DNA of 64,000 nucleotides from Victivallis vadensis (GTDB lineage Bacteria; Verrucomicrobiota; Lentisphaeria; Victivallales; Victivallaceae), in NCBI RefSeq assembly GCF_003096415.1, contig NZ_QEKH01000023.1:1-64000 (forward strand), read 5' to 3'. The position numbers and the translations under genes are program-made. The notes beneath the pieces are model-generated. The model worked only from the letters and a program-made list of their open reading frames with translations. It was not told the origin of the DNA and ran no database searches. Positions 1 to 10,386 of the stretch are shown in pieces. Each line of letters starts with the position of its first letter. Within the stretch, counting starts at the first letter, position 1.

Positions 1-3000
1 AATGGCGAATTCTACAAAGTCGGCACGAACGCGTTCAGCACTCTCTCGGAAGCGGTCAGCGCCGCAGAGGAGAACAGCGTCCTGACCGTCGCGGGCGCAA
101 ACTACGGCAGCGCCGCGCTCAACATCAACGCGTCCCAGACCTGGAAGGCGGGCGACGATGCCGCCATCACCGGACTCGCTACAATCAACATCGCTGACGG
201 CGTCACGTGGAACAACCTCGCCGCGATCGACATCGCCGCCGGTTCCACCCTGAAGCTCAACGACCGCAACAACACCAATCCGGACAATGGCGGCATCTGG
301 CGCGAATACACGTTGAACGGCAGGATTACCGGCGGCGGCCGCCTGGAATACATGAGCAGCCAGACGAATGCGAACACCAGCCTGATTCTGGGCAACGGCC
401 TGTATGCCGGTGCGGCGGACGGCGCCGGCATCGCGGTTGGAGCGCGCCGTCTCTACCTGAACGGCAACGGCGCGAATGTCACGGTCGTCAGCTATGCTCC
501 CAACATGATTCTTGACGGAATCTGGGGCGGCAGTGCCGTGGCGGGAGCCGCGATCAATCAGGACCTGACGGTCAAGGTCGACGGAGTCGGCTTCTCCGGA
601 GTGACCGACGGGATTTACGGCGGCGGCCGGGATGCCGACATCATCGGCAATATCAGGGTCGAGCTTGCCAATATCCCCGGCGGCAATGCCAAAATTGACG
701 TATTCGGAGGCAATGTTCTGGACAGCGTCGCCGGAGACCGCGGCGTAATTACCGGCAATATCTCCATTACGATCACCGACAGCACCGTGGGCCGCGTGTT
801 CGGCGGCAGTGAAAGCGGCGGCAGCATGACCGGAAACACTTCCGTGACGCTGACCAACTCGACCGCCGGAGCGGTCTACGGCGGCGGCGGCGGCACCTTT
901 GCGGTGAACGGCAACACGTCGGTCACGCTGACCGGCTCCACCGTCGGCTCCGCGACCGGCGCCGGAACCGTCTATGCCGGAGCCATGCAGACAGACGGCA
1001 AGGTGACCGGGACCGCCATCCTGATCGTGACGGATTCCACTATTTACGGACGCGTCGGCGGCCCCAACGGCAGCGTCGGGCGCACCAGCATCACGTTGAA
1101 CGGCAACACCGTAGTCGGCGGCGACAAGGTGTATGTCGAAAGCATGGCCAGTTCGGTGTTCGGCGGCACGGTCGACGAACGCGGCGGCGCGGGTTCCACC
1201 TTTATCAGCGTCGGCGGCAACACCCGGCTGCTCGGCAGCGCCTTCCAGACCGGAACGGCCGGCGGCAATCTCTACGGCGGCAGCCGCCAGTATTCGTGGG
1301 TGACCGGCGACACCGAAGTCGAAATCAAGGATAACGCCTCAATCGCCGGTTCGGTGTTCGGCGGCGGCATCGGCAACGGCTACAAGGGCTATGACGGCGT
1401 CGGCGGCAATACGTCGATCACGGTTTCCGGCAGCGCCGAAGTCGTCGGCGACATCTACGGCGGCGGCGAAACGAGCAACGGCGACGACGGCGGCTACTCG
1501 GTCAAGGGCAATACCGAAATCACCATCCGGGACAACGCCGGTGTCCACAGCATCTACGCCGGAGGCAAGGCGGGCACGGTCGGCGGCACCGGCACGATCA
1601 CCGTCTGCGGCGGCACTTTCGCGGCCGGTTCGGTGATTGACGGCGCCAATGTTGCGGGCGGCACCACCCTGAACCTTGAAAACGTCGCTTCGGTCGCCGA
1701 TGTCACGTTCCGGAACCTGGCGCTGGTCAATGTGAAGCAGGATATGGCCTATTCCCTGAACCGGTTCGTGAACGTCGCGGAAATCTCGATCTCCGCCGGC
1801 AAGACCCTGACGCTGGATGCGGCCAACACCGATGTGACGCTCGGCTCGGACGTCACCGGCGACGGCAAATTCGCGGTAAACGCCCGTGATTTCTACGCCA
1901 ACGGCAAAAGCGTTACACTGAGCGACAGCACCATCACCGGCAAGGTGACCGGGGCGACTTACACGACTCCCGGCGGCAAGGACTTCACCTCCACCGACCT
2001 GACGTTGAACAATGCGGCGGTAACCGGGGATGTCTACGGCGGCTCTTATTACACCGGCCATGTCGGTTCGGCCAAGGTCACCATCAACGGCGGCACCTAC
2101 AACGGCCGCGTCTACGGCGGCAGCATCACCGACTATTACTACGATGAAATCACGGTGGACCATGCGGAAACCGTGATCACCGCCGGAACCTTCGCCAAGG
2201 AAGTCTACGGCGGCAGCGGGGCGGCTTCCTCCGTCAAGCTCGGTTCGAGCCTGACGATCTCCGGCGGCACCTTCTCCAATTCGGTGTTCGGCGGCGGGGG
2301 CGGCGGTTCCTTCGTCGGCGGTTACACGCTTGATGCCGGTAATATACCGGTGGAAGACGCCTCCCTGCCGAAAGCGGACAGCACCCTTACCATCACCGGC
2401 GGGACCTTCAACACCAAGTCCTCGAACAGCATCGGCGGCGTCTACGGCGGCAATGCCCACGGTTTCGTAACCGGCAACGCCTCCGTTGCAGTGACCGGAA
2501 CGGATACCGTCAGCATCACCGGTCCGGTTGTCGGCGGCAACAACGCCTCCAGTCCCTCCGGCCGGGCGGCCAACTACATCGGCGGCAACGCCTCCGTAAT
2601 CATCGGCAACGCCCATGCGGTGATTGCCGGAAACGTGGCCGGCGGTTCCAGCAGCCGGAAGTACGAGGGCGGCGGCTCCGCGACGCTGGTCAAGGGCAAC
2701 AGCTCCGTGACCATCTCGGCCGGAACGGTCAACGGCAATGTCTACGGCGGCGGCTTCGGGATTTCCGGCGGCATTTCGACCGTGAACGGCAATACCTCCG
2801 TGACAGTTTCGGGAGGCACGGTGAACGGCAACATCTATGCCGGAGGCAATGAGTTCAGTACGGTCGGCGGCAACGTCACCGTCACGGTCAGTGGCGGCAA
2901 TATCACCGCCGACCTGATCGACGGCTGCAACGTCTCGGTGGATGGGACCAGCACCTTCGTCTATGACGATGCCGCGACCTTCAGCGTCAGGACGGTCCGG

Positions 3001-4944
3001 AACTTCGACAAACTGGTCATCAACCGCAACGCCGACCTGACCGGAACCGAATTCAAGGAGATCGGCGCTCTGGAGCTCGGCGCCGGTGTCGATGATGTGA
3101 AGTTCGACAAACTCACATTCAGCGAGGATGCGTCATTGACGGTCGGAAAAAACACGACGCTGCGGGGCGAATTCACGCTCGGCAAGCGTAATTCGGAAGT
3201 CGTCCAGAAGGCCGATATTACCGGTACGATGACAGGCGCCGGCGGAGAATCCGTCCTGTACGTCAGCGGTAAGCGCGCGGAAGTGAATCTCTCCGGCGAT
3301 ATCAGCAATGCGGCTCACGGCATCAAATTCGGCGGCAACGAACTTATCGTCGATACGATCGGTTCAATGGACCTGAGCACCGGCAGCAGGCATACCTATT
3401 GCAACGGCATCTTCGCCAACAGCGATAATGGAGACCTGACGACTGTGGTCGGCCGTATGACCGGTCGAATTTCCGTCGAGGAATTCGGCGGCCAGTTCGC
3501 AAACGGCATTTTCATGGACGGCGGCGCCAGCAGCACCTTCAAATTGAATGAATTTGCAGCCGGCGCTTCCATCCGGGCTTACAGCGCCGGCGGTTTTGCC
3601 TCCGGTTTCAGCAACCAGGCGGATTTCGACGGTAATGCGCCTGCGGATGTCCGCGGTACGGCGGTCGCCCTGACGGAAATCGCCCCCCTGGCCGGTTCGA
3701 TCGAAGCATATGCCGATCAATATGCCGCAGTCGGCGTCAACGTCTCCGGTGAAGCCAGAGGCGATCTGACGGTCGGAACCCTCTCCGGCAGCATCTACGC
3801 CGAACTCTCGCAGAGCTCCAACTATCACGAAGGAGCATACGGCCTGATGACCGGCACGGAAAACGCAGACGGCACTTCCATCCTGACGGTCCGCGATCTC
3901 TCCGGCACGGTTGCTGCCAATGCCGTCTCCGCGAAGAATGACGACGGCCGGACGATGGCATACGGTCTTGTCGCCGGCACCAGCGTCAATGCGACGATTT
4001 CCGGTACGGTCTTCGCCGGCAGCTATCAGGGCAATGACCTGATGGCGAAGCTCGCCGGAGTCCGCAACGGCAGCGTCGCGGCCGATTCGCTTGCGGCTTA
4101 CGCAACCGGAATTGCGATTGTCGGCGGCAGCCGGAGCGATACGATCACGCTGAAGAGCGGCGCCATGATCTTCGGCGATATCGATCTTGGAACCGGTGAC
4201 GATACACTGACGATGGAAAACGGCGTCACCGTGAACGGGAAGATCAGCCTCGGCGACGGCAATGACAAGATCACCGTCAACGGAACTTTCTCCGGAACGA
4301 TCGATCTCGGCGGCGGCCAAAACACGCTGACGATTTCCGCTGCGACTGACCTGACGAACAGTACTCTCACCGGTACGCTTTCACGTCTGGAAGTGGCGGC
4401 CGGCAAGACCGGTACGGTAGCTGTCGATGACGCGCTCCTCGCCGCTTCGGGAGAACTCTGCATCAGTGTGGACGGCCGCAGCTACGACAGCACGGAAGCG
4501 GCGGTCAGCGTCACCGCCCCGCTGGATTCGAGCCTGTCGATTTCGATCGAAGTCCCGGCGGTCTGGGGCGGTGTGGAGAGTGCGAAAGAGATCATCCTGA
4601 TCAGGAACCTGACCGGTTCGACCGGCGGGCTCGGCATCGACGGCATGACGATCACCGTCTTCGGCAAGCTCGGCAAGGTTTCCGGCGAACTCGGTTCCGC
4701 GCAGGTCGGCGGAGCGGCCACGGTCGATTTCGGCATGGGAGCGAACTGGGGCCTCAAGCTCAATGCAAACGGCGACCTGGTGTTCTACAACGATATGCCC
4801 CGAACCATGGCGGCATTCAACGAACCGTCGATCGCCTCGGCGATGAACTGCCTCGCGACCGAAAACATCGTCTCCGGCTGCGGCAGCACGCTCGACGCGC
4901 TGAACCTCAACCTGGACGCCGACAACAAGAAACAGTTGGCGTAA
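1..4944 (+). CDS. Giant beta-helix repeat surface protein, 5' partial
   Basis: The frame is open from the first base, so the start lies upstream; the first in-window start-like codon (TTG at 313) is internal. At least 1647 residues are visible. Most is a degenerate repeat of about 25-35 residues built on GNTSVTVSGGTVNGNVYGGG-like units, rich in Gly, Asn, Thr and Ser, as expected of a right-handed parallel beta-helix or adhesin/autotransporter passenger. Near 4180-4320 the pattern changes to GTGDDTL and GDGNDKI, resembling RTX calcium-binding turns. No C-terminal beta-barrel, LPxTG or PEP-CTERM signal is present; it ends DADNKKQLA. A 35-codon peptide gene follows after 39 bp with no terminator between, so they are probably co-transcribed. 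The surface location is inferred from repeat type. The ligand is unknown. Confidence 0.85.
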   Translation, partial: NGEFYKVGTNAFSTLSEAVSAAEENSVLTVAGANYGSAALNINASQTWKAGDDAAITGLATINIADGVTWNNLAAIDIAAGSTLKLNDRNNTNPDNGGIWREYTLNGRITGGGRLEYMSSQTNANTSLILGNGLYAGAADGAGIAVGARRLYLNGNGANVTVVSYAPNMILDGIWGGSAVAGAAINQDLTVKVDGVGFSGVTDGIYGGGRDADIIGNIRVELANIPGGNAKIDVFGGNVLDSVAGDRGVITGNISITITDSTVGRVFGGSESGGSMTGNTSVTLTNSTAGAVYGGGGGTFAVNGNTSVTLTGSTVGSATGAGTVYAGAMQTDGKVTGTAILIVTDSTIYGRVGGPNGSVGRTSITLNGNTVVGGDKVYVESMASSVFGGTVDERGGAGSTFISVGGNTRLLGSAFQTGTAGGNLYGGSRQYSWVTGDTEVEIKDNASIAGSVFGGGIGNGYKGYDGVGGNTSITVSGSAEVVGDIYGGGETSNGDDGGYSVKGNTEITIRDNAGVHSIYAGGKAGTVGGTGTITVCGGTFAAGSVIDGANVAGGTTLNLENVASVADVTFRNLALVNVKQDMAYSLNRFVNVAEISISAGKTLTLDAANTDVTLGSDVTGDGKFAVNARDFYANGKSVTLSDSTITGKVTGATYTTPGGKDFTSTDLTLNNAAVTGDVYGGSYYTGHVGSAKVTINGGTYNGRVYGGSITDYYYDEITVDHAETVITAGTFAKEVYGGSGAASSVKLGSSLTISGGTFSNSVFGGGGGGSFVGGYTLDAGNIPVEDASLPKADSTLTITGGTFNTKSSNSIGGVYGGNAHGFVTGNASVAVTGTDTVSITGPVVGGNNASSPSGRAANYIGGNASVIIGNAHAVIAGNVAGGSSSRKYEGGGSATLVKGNSSVTISAGTVNGNVYGGGFGISGGISTVNGNTSVTVSGGTVNGNIYAGGNEFSTVGGNVTVTVSGGNITADLIDGCNVSVDGTSTFVYDDAATFSVRTVRNFDKLVINRNADLTGTEFKEIGALELGAGVDDVKFDKLTFSEDASLTVGKNTTLRGEFTLGKRNSEVVQKADITGTMTGAGGESVLYVSGKRAEVNLSGDISNAAHGIKFGGNELIVDTIGSMDLSTGSRHTYCNGIFANSDNGDLTTVVGRMTGRISVEEFGGQFANGIFMDGGASSTFKLNEFAAGASIRAYSAGGFASGFSNQADFDGNAPADVRGTAVALTEIAPLAGSIEAYADQYAAVGVNVSGEARGDLTVGTLSGSIYAELSQSSNYHEGAYGLMTGTENADGTSILTVRDLSGTVAANAVSAKNDDGRTMAYGLVAGTSVNATISGTVFAGSYQGNDLMAKLAGVRNGSVAADSLAAYATGIAIVGGSRSDTITLKSGAMIFGDIDLGTGDDTLTMENGVTVNGKISLGDGNDKITVNGTFSGTIDLGGGQNTLTISAATDLTNSTLTGTLSRLEVAAGKTGTVAVDDALLAASGELCISVDGRSYDSTEAAVSVTAPLDSSLSISIEVPAVWGGVESAKEIILIRNLTGSTGGLGIDGMTITVFGKLGKVSGELGSAQVGGAATVDFGMGANWGLKLNANGDLVFYNDMPRTMAAFNEPSIASAMNCLATENIVSGCGSTLDALNLNLDADNKKQLA

Positions 4945-4983: not shown

Positions 4984-5091
4984 ATGGAAAAATTCGACTA
5001 CGAACGTCCTGAACTGATTGAGTTCAGTGATTGGAATGGCATTCAGGGAGCCGACAGCTCCGGCACCGGCGGAGAAGGCGGACAGCCCTGA
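4984..5091 (+). CDS. Candidate RiPP precursor peptide (35 aa)
   Basis: A short ORF with a purine-rich ribosome site (AGGATTGAGAG) before its ATG. The peptide has an acidic/aromatic leader with Y6-E-R-P9-E-L, which fits the YxxPxL motif that lasso-type leaders use to bind PqqD-like recognition proteins, and a Gly/Ser-rich tail GADSSGTGGEGGQP. There is no Cys. It sits directly after the giant repeat gene and just before a terminator, and the next operon encodes a PqqD-like protein, a kinase-like protein, an exporter and a peptidase. Leader/core boundaries cannot be read from the sequence. The precursor role is inference from motif plus context; the alternative is a small unmodified peptide or chance ORF. 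Confidence 0.6.
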   Translation: MEKFDYERPELIEFSDWNGIQGADSSGTGGEGGQP

Positions 5092-5108
5092 GCCCCCTCC
5101 CCCGCAAC

Positions 5109-5152
5109 TCCGGGCGGCGACAGTTTACCACTGCTGCCGCCCGGATATTTTT
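5109..5152 (+). terminator. Rho-independent terminator after the peptide gene
   Basis: TCCGGGCGGC pairs with GCCGCCCGGA, with an inner CAG/CTG stem and a 7-base loop, followed by TATTTTT. It closes the transcript carrying the repeat protein and the small peptide. Confidence 0.8.
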
Positions 5153-5173
5153 CCGCACAATTGCCGAAACCGC

Positions 5174-5207
5174 TTGACAAGAATACATTCATCCTGTAGT
5201 TTATAGT
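5174..5207 (+). promoter_or_regulatory. Promoter of the kinase/PqqD/ABC/peptidase operon
   Basis: TTGACA at 5174-5179, 17-bp spacer, TAGTTT at 5197-5202 (TATAGT at 5202 is an alternative -10). It lies between the terminator and the kinase-like gene, so the modification/export genes have their own promoter, separate from the precursor. Confidence 0.6.
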
Positions 5208-5233
5208 GATTATACAAGAATAAGCATTAAAGT

Positions 5234-6106
5234 GTGACAGTTCCTTTCATGGTCCGGTATCTGGATTTAAACAAGCGAGTACAATGGCAGGCGGAAAATG
5301 AGTCCACCGTGCTCCTGCTCGATAAGATGGGTGATATCGCCGGTCTATCCTTTACGGCCTCTCCGGAAAACGCTTCACCGCTTTTTGATTTTTCCCTGAT
5401 TCCCGAACCGGTTTCTCCGTCGGGGGAAATCAAATGGATGGATACGCTTTATTTCGCCTCCGACAGCGACTGCCGTCACCTGCGCGCCATTGGCAGAATC
5501 CGCAACCGGACGCCGGAGGAACTGGGTTTCCTTTACCGCCGTCTCTTTTTCTACGGGCTGCTTTCCGAACTATTGGCGGGGGAACTTTTTTACTTTCACG
5601 GCGGCCTGCTGGTTCACAATGGTTCCGGAACACTGTTTTCCGGTCCCAGCGGAGTCGGCAAGAGTACGTTTGCCCGGCGGATCACCCCGGATTTTGAAGT
5701 ACGCAGTGATGATCTGGTGCTGCTTTACCGCAAAACAGGCCAGTGGTTCGCCCATCCGGCCCCCACCTGGAGCATCTGGTTCGCCAATACGGCGCTGCCG
5801 CGCCGCTATCGGACGGCGGAACCGGTCCCGTTGCGGAATTTCATCCTGCTCGGCCGCGATCAGGTTGAATCCTTTTCCACCCGGCTGCCGCTTCCGCTCC
5901 GGCAGATCGGGCTTTCCCGGGCCTTGAATGACCTCGTCCATATCCTCGCCTCGCCGTGTCCGCCGGAGTTCCGCCGGCGTTTATCCCAAAATATCCTGCA
6001 CGGCGCCTCCGAATTATGCCGAAGCCTGCCGGGCGGCTATTTCAAGCTGAACCTGACCGATGATCCCCGGAGCAATCCGGACTTCCGGCGGTTCCTCGAC
6101 TCCTGA
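5234..6106 (+). CDS. HPr kinase-like P-loop protein of the RiPP-type cassette
   Basis: 290 residues. The C-terminal half resembles the HPr kinase/phosphorylase fold: Walker A GPSGVGKST at about residues 136-144 and the SDDLVLL segment at about 157-163, matching the conserved DD motif of that fold. The N-terminal half is not recognised. Stand-alone HprK relatives occur in some peptide clusters (for example paeninodin-type lasso clusters), where they phosphorylate a precursor Ser; a similar role on the Ser-containing 35-aa peptide is an inference. Gap to the PqqD-like gene is 26 bp. The start is uncertain: GTG at 5234 or ATG at 5249, neither with a strong ribosome site. Not a PTS regulator by context. 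Confidence 0.7.
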   Translation: MTVPFMVRYLDLNKRVQWQAENESTVLLLDKMGDIAGLSFTASPENASPLFDFSLIPEPVSPSGEIKWMDTLYFASDSDCRHLRAIGRIRNRTPEELGFLYRRLFFYGLLSELLAGELFYFHGGLLVHNGSGTLFSGPSGVGKSTFARRITPDFEVRSDDLVLLYRKTGQWFAHPAPTWSIWFANTALPRRYRTAEPVPLRNFILLGRDQVESFSTRLPLPLRQIGLSRALNDLVHILASPCPPEFRRRLSQNILHGASELCRSLPGGYFKLNLTDDPRSNPDFRRFLDS

Positions 6107-6132
6107 TCTAACAACCAACTCAAGGAAATACC

Positions 6133-6393
6133 ATGAAAGTCAATCCAGAAATCATTCTGCGTGAAGAGTTTGACGGCAGCGCATTTCTGTTCAATCCCGA
6201 CGACGGCCAGATCTTCGGCCTGAATCCGACCGCGAAGTTCATCTGGAAAAGCTTGGCCCGCGACGAAACGCCGGAGCAGATTCTGGCCGGCCTCGCCGAA
6301 CACAGCGCCTCCCCCCTCCCCCCGGAGGCGGAGAAAGACCTGAATGATTTTCTGCTCCAGCTGCAGGACAAAGGCTACCTGTCACGGAATTGA
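6133..6393 (+). CDS. PqqD-like RiPP recognition protein
   Basis: 86 residues with the PqqD family pattern: an N-terminal beta-rich part (LREEFDGSAFLFNPDDGQIFGLN) leading into NPTAKFIWKSLARDETPEQI and a C-terminal helix ending LQLQDKGYL. These winged-helix proteins bind leader peptides and deliver them to modifying enzymes. AAGGAAATACC precedes the ATG. It lies in the middle of the cassette and is the strongest single sign that a ribosomal peptide is processed here, with the YxxP peptide at 4984 as the obvious partner. Confidence 0.8.
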   Translation: MKVNPEIILREEFDGSAFLFNPDDGQIFGLNPTAKFIWKSLARDETPEQILAGLAEHSASPLPPEAEKDLNDFLLQLQDKGYLSRN

Positions 6394-6396
6394 ACC

Positions 6397-8091
6397 ATGC
6401 CCAGTTCTCCCGTCTGGTCCGCCTCCTCTCCTGAAAACTCCGGCTTTACCGGGGTATGGCGTCTCCTGCGCCCGGAGCTGATTCCGGAAAAACGGCGAAT
6501 CGCCCTGCTTGGGGCCATCGTGCTGATCTCCACCGCGATCAGCTACCTCTCTCCATGGCTTCAGCGCAAATGCATCAACGCACTGGAGATCCGGGTCTGG
6601 GAGCCGGCGGTCCAGTTCGCCGCCGCGGTCTTTTCCGCCATCGCCGCGGCCCGGCTGCTCGACGCGGCGGAGACCTATCTGGTCAATATCCTGAATACCC
6701 GGATCGGCCTCTCCCTGAAGCGGCGCATGCTCGGCAGCCTGCTCGGCCTTTCCGCCGCCAGCATTTCCCGGCTCGGCAGCGGTTATATCGCCGGGCGGCT
6801 GTTGAACGACCTCGATACGAGCAGCTATCTCTATTCCGGCGTGCTCTGTTCGGGGGTGCGCAATGCGCTGAAAATCATCGGCGGCTTCTGCTTCATCGCG
6901 CTGTTCGACTGGCGGATCGCCGCCGGATTGCTGCCCGCCCTCGCCTGTTACTGGCCGGTCGCCGCATTGTTCCGCCGCCGCCAATATCAGCTGGCGCTTG
7001 AAGTCTGCGAGCGCCGCGCCGAATCCAACCGCACCATCTATGACGCGCTGCGCAATATCACGCTGGTCAAGGCCGGGACGGCCGAACAACAGGCGAACGA
7101 CCGGTTCCACAGCGAATTGAACTCCATCGAGCAGCTCCAGCTGCGCCGTTTCAAGCTGGACAACCTGTTCCGGGCCGCTCTGCTGCTTCTGCCCGGCATC
7201 TGCTACGCCGGAGTCGCCGCGCTCGGCATTCACATGATTCTGGCCGAACGCTGGACGCTCGGTGAATTCTGGGCGTTGAATTGCTATCTGTCCTATCTCT
7301 TCAATCCGCTTCAGGCACTGTGTGCCTCCACGGTCCGGGTCCAGCAGGCGGTTGCGGCGGCAGGACGGCTGCTGCAATTGCAGCGCCTGATGCCGGAGCC
7401 GGGCGGCGGTTCAAGAAAGGCCGACCGCCTCACCGGAAAAATCACAATCCGGCGCCTGAATTTCTCCTATGATGCCGCCACTCCGGTTTTCCGCGATTTT
7501 TCTCTGGAAATCTCTCCGGGCGAAAAGGTGGTGATCACCGGAGAAAGCGGTTGCGGGAAAAGCACTCTCGCCGCCTTGCTGCTCAGTTTCTACCGCCCCA
7601 CTTCCGGGGAAATTCTTTTCGACGACCATCCGCAGCATGAGTACGAGCTTGCCACCCTGCGCCGCCGGATCGGTTACCTGAGCCAGGTCACCGAATTTTT
7701 CAACGGCACCATTCGGGATAATTTGAGCAGCGGACTCGATCGGGCTCCTGATGACGCCGAACTGCTTCAGGCCCTACGGACCGCCGGGGTCGACGAGCTT
7801 CTCCGCCATCTGCCGGACGGCCTGGACAGCCGGATTTTTGAAGGCGGAGCCAATTTTTCCGTCGGGGAACGGCTGCGGCTGGCGCTCGCCCGCGAGCTGT
7901 TGCGCGACAGCGATATCATCATTTTCGACGAATCCACCGCCAATCTGGACCCGGTGCACGAGCAGCAGCTGCTCGACGTGATCGACCGTCACTTCAGCAC
8001 GAAAACCATTCTGCTGATCTCGCACCGCGAAAGCAGCATCGCCCACTTCTCCCGCCGGATTCATCTGGAAAAACTCCGGGAGCGCTCATGA
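6397..8091 (+). CDS. ABC exporter, fused membrane and ATPase domains
   Basis: 564 residues. The N-terminal ~320 residues are a type-I exporter membrane domain with several hydrophobic helices; the C-terminal ATPase has Walker A GESGCGKST, Q-loop YLSQ, Walker B DIIIFDES and switch His in ISHRES. The signature is degenerate: SVGER in place of LSGGQ. There is no N-terminal C39 peptidase domain, so leader removal must be done by another protein, plausibly the peptidase encoded next. It starts 3 bp after the PqqD-like stop and overlaps the next gene by ATGA, so translation is coupled. The likely role is export of the mature peptide. Confidence 0.85.
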   Translation: MPSSPVWSASSPENSGFTGVWRLLRPELIPEKRRIALLGAIVLISTAISYLSPWLQRKCINALEIRVWEPAVQFAAAVFSAIAAARLLDAAETYLVNILNTRIGLSLKRRMLGSLLGLSAASISRLGSGYIAGRLLNDLDTSSYLYSGVLCSGVRNALKIIGGFCFIALFDWRIAAGLLPALACYWPVAALFRRRQYQLALEVCERRAESNRTIYDALRNITLVKAGTAEQQANDRFHSELNSIEQLQLRRFKLDNLFRAALLLLPGICYAGVAALGIHMILAERWTLGEFWALNCYLSYLFNPLQALCASTVRVQQAVAAAGRLLQLQRLMPEPGGGSRKADRLTGKITIRRLNFSYDAATPVFRDFSLEISPGEKVVITGESGCGKSTLAALLLSFYRPTSGEILFDDHPQHEYELATLRRRIGYLSQVTEFFNGTIRDNLSSGLDRAPDDAELLQALRTAGVDELLRHLPDGLDSRIFEGGANFSVGERLRLALARELLRDSDIIIFDESTANLDPVHEQQLLDVIDRHFSTKTILLISHRESSIAHFSRRIHLEKLRERS

Positions 8092-8642
8092 ACTACATCT
8101 ATCACGGCAACAGCATGAAGCGCGTTTTTCAGGCGGGCGACGTGCCGGAACTGCGGGAAATTCCGTTCCATGAGTTCCGGCGCGGCGATATCGTCTGCTT
8201 CCGCCGCCCGGATGGAGCAGAGGTGATTCACCGTGTGTATCACACCGCTCCGGAGGCGCTGACCACATGGGGAGACAACAACCTTCGGCCCGACCCGGAA
8301 CCGGTCCGTGCGGAGTGGAATCCCCGGCTGGCGGTCGGCTTTCGGCGCGGAGATAACCGTTTCCTTCTGCCGCGCGGACATGCCGGGATGCGGCAATTCC
8401 GGTTCAACCGCCTGCGATTCCATCTGCGCCGTCTGTGCGGCATTCCGTTCCGATTTCTCGCCCGCGGTGCGCGATGGTGGGGAATCCGGCAACTGGAGTA
8501 CGAAACCTTCGCTCGGGACCGCCATTATTTTTACCGCGGCAAACCGATTGCCCGGAAGCGCAAAAACGGCCCCCTCGAATATCGCCGCTGGTATTACCGG
8601 TTGTTTTTCTTCATTCAGGAAGACGATTCCGTCTCACGCTGA
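8088..8642 (+). CDS. S26 signal peptidase-like protein
   Basis: 184 residues. GNSMKRVF near residue 8 matches the catalytic-serine box of S26/S24 peptidases (SM), and RGDIVCF then VIHRVYH matches the downstream boxes with His in the general-base position, as in archaeal/eukaryotic-type (S26B) signal peptidases. GDNNLRPD follows the pattern of the next conserved box. No transmembrane helix is evident; the C-terminal 90 residues are very basic and unrecognised. It overlaps the ABC gene (ATGA). The inferred job is cleaving the leader of the cassette's peptide. Confidence 0.65.
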   Translation: MNYIYHGNSMKRVFQAGDVPELREIPFHEFRRGDIVCFRRPDGAEVIHRVYHTAPEALTTWGDNNLRPDPEPVRAEWNPRLAVGFRRGDNRFLLPRGHAGMRQFRFNRLRFHLRRLCGIPFRFLARGARWWGIRQLEYETFARDRHYFYRGKPIARKRKNGPLEYRRWYYRLFFFIQEDDSVSR

Positions 8643-8718: not shown

Positions 8719-8793
8719 TGCGGGGTGGAGCAGTGGTAGCTCGTCAGGCTCATAACCTGAAGGCCAATGGTTCGATTCCATTCCCCGCTACCA
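8719..8793 (+). tRNA. tRNA-fMet (CAT anticodon)
   Basis: A full cloverleaf of 75 nt with encoded CCA. The anticodon loop CTCATAA in a TCAGG/CCTGA stem reads CAT. The acceptor 1:72 pair is a T-T mismatch, an initiator-tRNA trait, and the body closely follows bacterial tRNA-fMet. Its 3' part from 8744 onward is repeated at 27741, so this gene is the integration target of the island. It has no terminator immediately downstream: the apparent original one is at 27803. Confidence 0.95.
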
Positions 8794-8799
8794 TTTTTC
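8744..8799. repeat. Left attachment repeat (attL)
   Basis: 56 bp identical to 27741-27796, beginning in the tRNA anticodon stem (TCAGGCTCATAA) and ending six bases past the CCA. Confidence 0.9.
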
Positions 8800-8848
8800 C
8801 AGCTCAGAAATGCCGAGAGAGCAACTGAAAAATGGCAAAGTCACAAGT

Positions 8849-8869
8849 TTGTGTAAAATTTGTGCAAAT
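8849..8869. repeat. TTGTG-type arm repeat, left copy
   Basis: Two tandem TTGTGYAAAA-like units; 19 of 21 bases match the block at 27626-27646 near the other island end. It sits 50 bp inside the attachment repeat, a plausible integrase arm or excisionase site. Confidence 0.5.
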
Positions 8870-8946
8870 CCAGAGAGATGCAGCAACGACAGTCCTCCCT
8901 GTCAAATCACAACGGATCACAATGATCCAATCAGGGAGGAGTTGCC

Positions 8947-10386
8947 ATGTCAATCAAAATCCGAAGCAAAAAGTTCCATTACCGTTTCATGGTTGCCGGA
9001 GTCAGTTATTCCGGCATCTGTAAAGGCTGTGAAATTCCGCCGGGAGCTTCTGCGCGGGAAATTGCCACTTTCAAAAAGCGCGCAGAACACTTTGAGGCAT
9101 CCGAGCGTACCCGCATTCTTCGCGAAAATGAAGAGCAGAAAGAGATCGAACGGGATATCCGCCGCAACAAAACGGTCATCGCACTCGTCGAAAACTATAA
9201 GTATGAATTGACCGGCGGTCATCCTGTCCTCTTGGATGAAGCGTTTGAATTGGCCGCTCAGAAACCATCCAGACGTATCGCCCAACCCAGTTATGCCGGC
9301 TTGAAGAAAACTTACTGGCAGGATTTCTGTGCCTATATAGCGCACTTTTATCCCGATATCACGGAAATTTCCCATATCCAGCGTTTGCACTGCGAAGCCT
9401 ATGTCAAATATCTGACCGATAACGGACATTTCCGGAAAGAAATCCGGTATACTGTTCAAAATGGTCACATGTCACGCGAAGTCTGCTATCACAGCCGTTA
9501 TCGGATTTCGGCCAAGACGATCAAAGAAATCGTCTGCGTTTGCCGAGGGATCTTCACCCGCCTGATGGAAGATGCCGGGCTGATTGTCAATCCCTGGAAC
9601 GAAGTTATCCTGCCGGAAGAAGAGAGCACTCCCCGGAGAATCTACACTCAGGAGGAAATCGCAAGAATCGCCGAAGGGATATCCGAAGATCCGCAGCGAA
9701 TGTGAAACGTCTATCAAGGCCAATCCGATCAGTTTGATCTCTGGTGTCAATACGCCCGTTTCTGCCGTCCCCTCTTTCTGATCGGAGCTTCCGGTTGGCC
9801 TGAAGTCGATATCTGTACAATGACCTGGGATAATGTCGATTGGAAAGCGCGGGCCATCATACGTAACCGCAGCAAAACCGGAGCGAATATGGTTCTGTTT
9901 TTTACCCCCGATATAGAAAAACTGCTTCGGTTTTAGCCGCAAACCGGTCAATATGTCTTCCCGGAACATGCGGAAATGTATCTGCGCCATTCCGGTTGTG
10001 TTTCGTACCGTGTAATCAAATTCCTGAAAGGACTTGGCATCACGACTTCAATACAGATACCGGAACGCCGGGCCGCCAGCGTCAAAGATCATCACAGCCT
10101 TCGCCACTCTTATTGTACCCTGGCAAATAAAGCCAGAATTCCGGTCAGTGTCAGAATGAAGCTTGCCGGTCATAAAACGGTAGCGATGGCGGAACACTAC
10201 GCCAATCACAACGATCTGGATGATCTACGGGAAGCCGCACAACATCTTCCTACTCTTTTGCCAGCCGCCTCTTCCGACGCGTACCCAACAGTCCGGCGGA
10301 ACAGATTGGCTAATCTGGCATATACACTGCCACCGGAAACGATTGATTATATTCTTTCTCTTGCCATTCCTGCCAAATCAAGTTAA
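8947..10386 (+). pseudogene. Tyrosine integrase, broken by two in-frame stops
   Basis: One continuous frame from ATG 8947 (ribosome site AGGGAGGAG) to TAA 10386, interrupted by TGA at 9703-9705 and TAG at 9934-9936. The N-terminal part has the SAM-like core-binding region; the C-terminal part has HSLRHSY (H-x-x-R), LAGHKT and a candidate nucleophile Tyr in AEHYA. The first catalytic Arg box is degraded: GASGWPEVD where TGLRxGE is usual. Full length would be about 480 residues. Its position next to attL marks it as the island integrase. Stop-codon readthrough is unlikely given the lost Arg. Confidence 0.88.

Follow-up and report, generated by a model that had tools for sequence, protein, structure and literature searches.

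A candidate phosphopeptide-type precursor gene behind a giant repeat gene in Victivallis vadensis, with an adjacent cassette resembling LPP clusters

Genes and features at the locus

The window (the whole 64,000-nucleotide stretch of V. vadensis contig NZ_QEKH01000023.1 that was analysed) opens inside a large gene for an adhesin-like, Gly-rich repeat protein, hereafter the giant, which ends 39 bp upstream of a 35-aa ORF (Table 1). The ORF heads a cassette (positions 4984-8642) in which it is followed by genes for an HPrK-like kinase, a discrete PqqD-type RRE, an MsbA-like exporter and an archaeal-type signal peptidase; the same order of these last four genes (K-B-D-S) was found at another locus (G083:C36). 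The original prediction had described a Cys-free peptide with Y6, P9 and L11 and a Gly/Ser-rich tail, all of which is present as described, and had placed it next to a PqqD-like gene, which does occur in the cassette but lies one gene further on, the kinase gene being the immediate 3' neighbour of the peptide; the giant gene upstream had been overlooked. The leader reads Y6ERP9EL11IEF..W and is followed by a conserved G22, and Ser25 and Ser26 are candidate phosphorylation sites.

Table 1. Position and annotation of the features around the peptide gene.
Feature	Position	Strand	Remarks
Large Gly-rich repeat protein (giant)	1..4944	+	1647 codons present, 5' end beyond contig start; C-terminus ..NLNLDADNKKQLA
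LppA-like RiPP-type precursor peptide	4984..5091	+	35 aa, MEKFDYERPELIEFSDWNGIQGADSSGTGGEGGQP
Terminator-like hairpin, then ATATTTTT	5109..5145	+	Fold -28.5 kcal/mol, z -5.35
HPrK-like peptide kinase (LppK/ScmC-like)	5234..6106	+	TIGR04249 ScmC 4.9e-14, below cut-off; alternative ATG 5249
Discrete RRE, PqqD/LppB/B1-like	6133..6393	+	Pfam PqqD 5.6e-15; TIGR04248 ScmD 6e-20, below cut-off
MsbA-like (LppD-like) ABC exporter, no C39 peptidase domain	6397..8091	+	ABC_membrane 1.1e-29, ABC_tran 1.9e-29
Archaeal-type signal peptidase I, LppS-like leader peptidase candidate	8088..8642	+	S9, H48, D63/D69

Pfam and NCBIfam searches with the giant returned no match. The kinase kept H122, GxGKST, D159-D160 and PxPTWS in 27 relatives, and its predicted fold matched HPrK/P (2qmh, 4.2e-5) and PEPCK, with a model of only fair to mediocre quality (pLDDT 62); the resemblance to HPrK is remote, but the catalytic motifs are present. 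The AF2 model of the RRE (pLDDT 91.8) was closest among PDB entries to the TbiB1-leader complex (5v1u/5v1v; TM 0.87 for 5v1u), followed by 6jx3 (TM 0.79), in keeping with the predicted role of the unannotated peptide as a YxxP leader for a PqqD/B1-type RRE; a single-protein PqqD search of the genome contigs gave no match. The exporter matched the MsbA family of NCBIfam at 6.7e-78, below the cut-off, and the signal peptidase matched TIGR02228 at 8.1e-14 (51.8 bits; cut-off 51.85). Among 21 relatives of the signal peptidase, S9, GD33-34, R49, D63 and D69 were invariant and H48 was kept in 20, and the spacing from Ser to His (39) equals that of S29-H68 in LppS (PMC13381572).

The peptide gene is probably the last cistron of the transcript of the giant, because a strong hairpin with a T-run lies behind it (Table 1); this hairpin, which was not listed by the pattern scanner, probably also keeps the peptide gene and the cassette on different transcripts. 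A promoter scan of the + strand produced nothing convincing. Downstream of the cassette, positions 8719-10386 hold a tRNA-Met and then an integrase-like frame broken by in-frame stops, which looks like a decayed integrated element directly behind the cassette. A phage search gave no match. Two further loci with kinase and PqqD genes occur in the same genome (G000:C4:137367 and G000:C5:172668) and have YxxP peptides of their own, namely two of the form MEKE[IL]YQKPVLEVIDFSVRDVITTSG.. and MEKDKFEYETPALEPMTEKVTAVQGATG.., the latter located behind a giant of ~3000 aa.

The peptide family and its pairing with giant repeat genes

The YxxP-type motif proves nothing by itself: one early YxxPx[hydrophobic] motif was observed in the short ORFs of the window against about 1.5 expected (order-1 Markov model of the same composition), which is chance level. 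That the ORF is a real gene follows instead from its divergence, family and placement. The genome carries the gene a second time (G000:C4:193493-193597), with 33 of 35 residues identical; nine codons have changed, seven synonymously and two nonsynonymously (both replacements near the C-terminus), while the upstream spacer and the 3' DNA of the two copies align poorly. A profile search of 137 genomes from the order detected relatives in 14, a broader profile detected them in 20 of the 387 genomes in a phylum sample, and 69 distinct peptides with the consensus Y.KPEL..F.......G.S were collected from the retrieved loci. In an alignment of 36 members the Tyr was invariant and the Pro and downstream Gly were kept in at least 90%; the Ser reached at least 90% in a core group, and most of the family had a Ser or Thr after the Gly, a few members having neither. 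Of the conservation that the original prediction had proposed as a check, the part concerning Tyr, Pro and the Ser region was thus borne out. The rival reading of a spurious frame in the 3' part of the giant gene, which the chance level of the motif taken alone would allow, is refuted by the synonymous bias between the two copies and by the 69-member family with its conserved placement, and we regard it as extremely improbable.

The placement concerns the giants. Of 63 scorable peptide relatives, 48 had a large Gly-rich repeat protein encoded immediately upstream, usually one ending in KLA or similar, compared to 23 of 843 control genes (p 1e-48, relatedness not corrected), and the remaining 15 had no giant; the second copy in V. 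vadensis is adjoined at the same place by a paralogous giant. In the opposite direction, a profile built on the C-terminal ends of giants had 27 matches in 42 genomes, 19 of which were followed by a peptide (10 of 18 for matches outside the profile seed); the initial proportion of 17 of 19 weakened to this value as more genomes were included, and six of the eight matches lacking a peptide came from a single genome (G073). The profile matched 9 of 14 PqqD-bearing and 0 of 28 PqqD-less genomes (p 4.5e-6), a difference that is suggestive only, since the seed giants were peptide-linked and came from PqqD-bearing genomes. Assemblies often break inside giant genes just upstream of a peptide (as at position 1 of the window, at the end of G000:C4 and at many contig ends in relatives), and giants and peptides are therefore probably under-counted.

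Peptide copies are often scattered away from any cassette. Two genomes carried about 6 and 11 peptides (G064 and G080, respectively), most of them following a giant or located where a contig ends, and had only two PqqD matches each, which implies processing in trans. Both the pairing of precursor and giant and the copies outside cassettes are new here; a literature search found no report of a phosphopeptide-type precursor paired with a giant repeat protein.

The peptide could also serve chiefly the giant, as a tag for export or assembly or as a signal or ligand secreted with it; the RRE, kinase and peptidase would then prepare it for that role instead of producing a free natural product. The position of most relatives directly behind giants, the 19 of 27 C-terminus matches followed by a peptide, the restriction of profile matches to PqqD-bearing genomes and the genome with about 11 peptides speak for such a partnership. 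Against it stand the giants lacking a peptide, the giant-free peptides, the origin of the profile seed and the far wider distribution of type I secretion systems than of the peptide, and we consider it possible but less likely than not. In its extended form, each giant would carry a leader-bearing peptide as its tail cistron, a central cassette of RRE, kinase and signal peptidase would phosphorylate and trim the peptide in trans, and the product would act with the giant (in export, in surface assembly or as a ligand) instead of being an independent natural product; this is a tentative proposal that we would not yet favour. Of all parts of the analysis, the link between peptide and giant is both the least certain and the one of greatest interest.

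A candidate exporter of the giants is an HlyB-like/HlyD system (an 851-aa HlyB-like ABC protein with HlyD, G000:C32:4847-8742), whose exporter shares 84% identity with its closest named relatives, from uncultured Victivallis, and has homologues also in Akkermansia and Desulfovibrio-type MAGs. It was rejected as a part of the cassette: PqqD lay near only 4 of 80 named relatives in the fetched flanks, and the system is for that reason probably general export machinery.

Maturation of the peptide and the class of the cassette

The best explanation of the locus, to which we assign a probability of roughly two in three, is that the ORF encodes an LPP-like RiPP precursor matured by the cassette. Judging from fold and motif, the RRE would bind the leader through Y6-x-x-P9-x-L11 and present the peptide to the kinase, which by analogy to LppK and from the conserved Ser would phosphorylate a Ser just after Gly22, most likely Ser25 or Ser26. 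The distance from Tyr to these Ser residues is 19-20, compared to 18 in LppA (Y-16 to S3). The signal peptidase may then remove the leader at or next to Gly22, leaving a short acidic, Gly-rich core that the MsbA-like protein would export. The precursor would be transcribed as the tail cistron of the giant, and the copies beside other giants would probably be served in trans by the same cassette. In favour of this explanation are the agreement of the gene set with the LPP cluster studied experimentally, the similarity of the RRE fold to B1-leader complexes, the preserved catalytic residues of kinase and peptidase, the conservation within the peptide family, the Tyr-Ser spacing, the co-occurrence of the LppN-type family with PqqD and the pairing with giants. 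The lack of an NTP transferase in the cassette, the absence of the LPP-specific leader residues, the sub-cut-off Scm scores of kinase and RRE, the hairpin between peptide and kinase genes and the few family members with neither Ser nor Thr after the Gly count against it.

The original prediction had called the leader lasso-type, and this class assignment did not hold: the B2 peptidase family (PF13471) was not found in the genome, and the kinase, the signal peptidase and the exporter of MsbA type point to LPP instead. A true lasso precursor would need the B1-type RRE of the cassette to work with a leader peptidase and a cyclase encoded elsewhere. The YxxP motif and the RRE do resemble lasso B1 systems, HPrK-like kinases are known in paeninodin-type lasso clusters (PMC13381572), and a core starting at A23 would put E31 at position 9, so that the core alone permits a ring. 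However, this Glu varies among members of the peptide family, a signal-peptidase-type enzyme occupies the place of the leader peptidase, and no macrolactam cyclase was found among the cassette proteins (Pfam and NCBIfam searches of the cassette only). The combination of YxxP leader and B1-type RRE, present by motif and predicted fold, is not specific to lasso peptides. The lasso reading was rejected because B2 (Transglut_core3) had no match in the 99.5%-complete genome, whereas 4 of 100 related genomes carry it, each time beside PqqD, and the search can therefore detect likely true lasso loci; we consider this reading very unlikely.

A radical-SAM RiPP of the SynChlorMet (Scm) type, with its maturase acting from elsewhere in the genome, is less improbable, but still unlikely. 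The best NCBIfam matches of the kinase and RRE were ScmC and ScmD, and ScmE-like radical SAM genes adjoin the peptide in related loci, but the cassette itself has no radical SAM gene and every score fell under its cut-off (52.4 of 125 bits for ScmC, 71.2 of 100 bits for ScmD). As a candidate maturase, the radical SAM gene at 55 kb in the window was rejected, since its SPASM match is only generic and no RRE gene adjoins it. Several relatives (L076, L080 and L107) have ScmE-like radical SAM/SPASM genes next to either the peptide gene or PqqD, which suggests that the peptide family includes a radical-SAM branch.

Comparison with LPP and other YxxP systems

The YxxP motif is common to lasso, PQQ and LPP leaders (PMC13381572), and the cassette shares parts with each of these systems. 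Paeninodin-type phosphorylated lasso peptides have an RRE reading [Y/W]xxP and a Ser-phosphorylating HPrK-like kinase, as here, whereas the cassette lacks a B2 peptidase and a macrolactam cyclase and has a signal-peptidase-type enzyme in the position of the leader peptidase. With PQQ (PqqA/PqqD) it has in common the PqqD fold and the lasso-like leader motif, but its precursor is different, it lacks a PqqE-type radical SAM gene, and TIGR03859 matched only at E 0.078. SynChlorMet systems (TIGR04248 ScmD, TIGR04249 ScmC, TIGR04250 ScmE), for whose cassette the literature search found no publication, differ in that ScmE and ScmF are absent here, ScmE-like enzymes occurring in some related loci.

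The linear polyphosphorylated peptides (LPP) are RiPPs that were reported as restricted to Bacillota, with a cluster studied experimentally in Paenibacillus alginolyticus (Popov et al. 2026, PMC13381572). There, LppA is the YxxP precursor, LppK an HPrK-like kinase placing several phosphates on Ser3 of the core, LppB the RRE, LppD an MsbA-like exporter, LppN an NTP transferase and LppS a SipW-like peptidase (S29/H68/D93); no role of LPP is known according to that report (PMC13381572). The cassette matches this cluster gene for gene (A-K-B-D-S) except for the NTP transferase: it has a short YxxP precursor, an HPrK-like kinase, a discrete RRE, an archaeal-type signal peptidase and an MsbA-like exporter, and no cyclase. 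The leaders differ (YxxPxVLxHQxIxFETxxS in LPP, Y.[KR]PEL..F..W....G.S in the Victivallis-type peptides), the peptide sharing with LPP no more than YxxPx[hydrophobic] and a similarly spaced Ser, without the LPP-specific VLxHQ and FET residues.

No NTP transferase of the LppN type is encoded in the cassette. We take PF14907 (NTP_transf_5), an uncharacterised nucleotidyltransferase family, to be of this type; the best such gene of the genome lies in a polysaccharide biosynthesis locus (G000:C34), a location reminiscent of the capsule-locus context in which Bacilli have their LPP clusters. Across 100 related genomes PF14907 scored above the cut-off in 38, all among the 41 with PqqD (Fisher 1.9e-24, relatedness not corrected), and in relatives' cassettes it is encoded either next to the signal peptidase (L106) or as a fusion with it (L066). 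Fusions of signal peptidase and PF14907 (L066:8268-9929 on the - strand and L114:1661-3322 on the + strand) physically tie LppS-like and LppN-like functions.

The Victivallis-type systems probably function in the manner of LPP, but because the LPP leader consensus and a local NTP transferase are missing, the cassette is a variant of LPP and not a member. The upstream giant gene and the stray precursors away from cassettes are likewise features of the Victivallis-type system that set it apart from LPP, and the frequent placement behind giants, with some copies scattered in one genome, offers a concrete hint at the purpose of LPP-type phosphopeptides. The hosts differ as well, Bacillota for LPP and a Victivallis-type lineage here, and the presence of much the same machinery in this lineage widens the LPP-type family beyond Bacillota.
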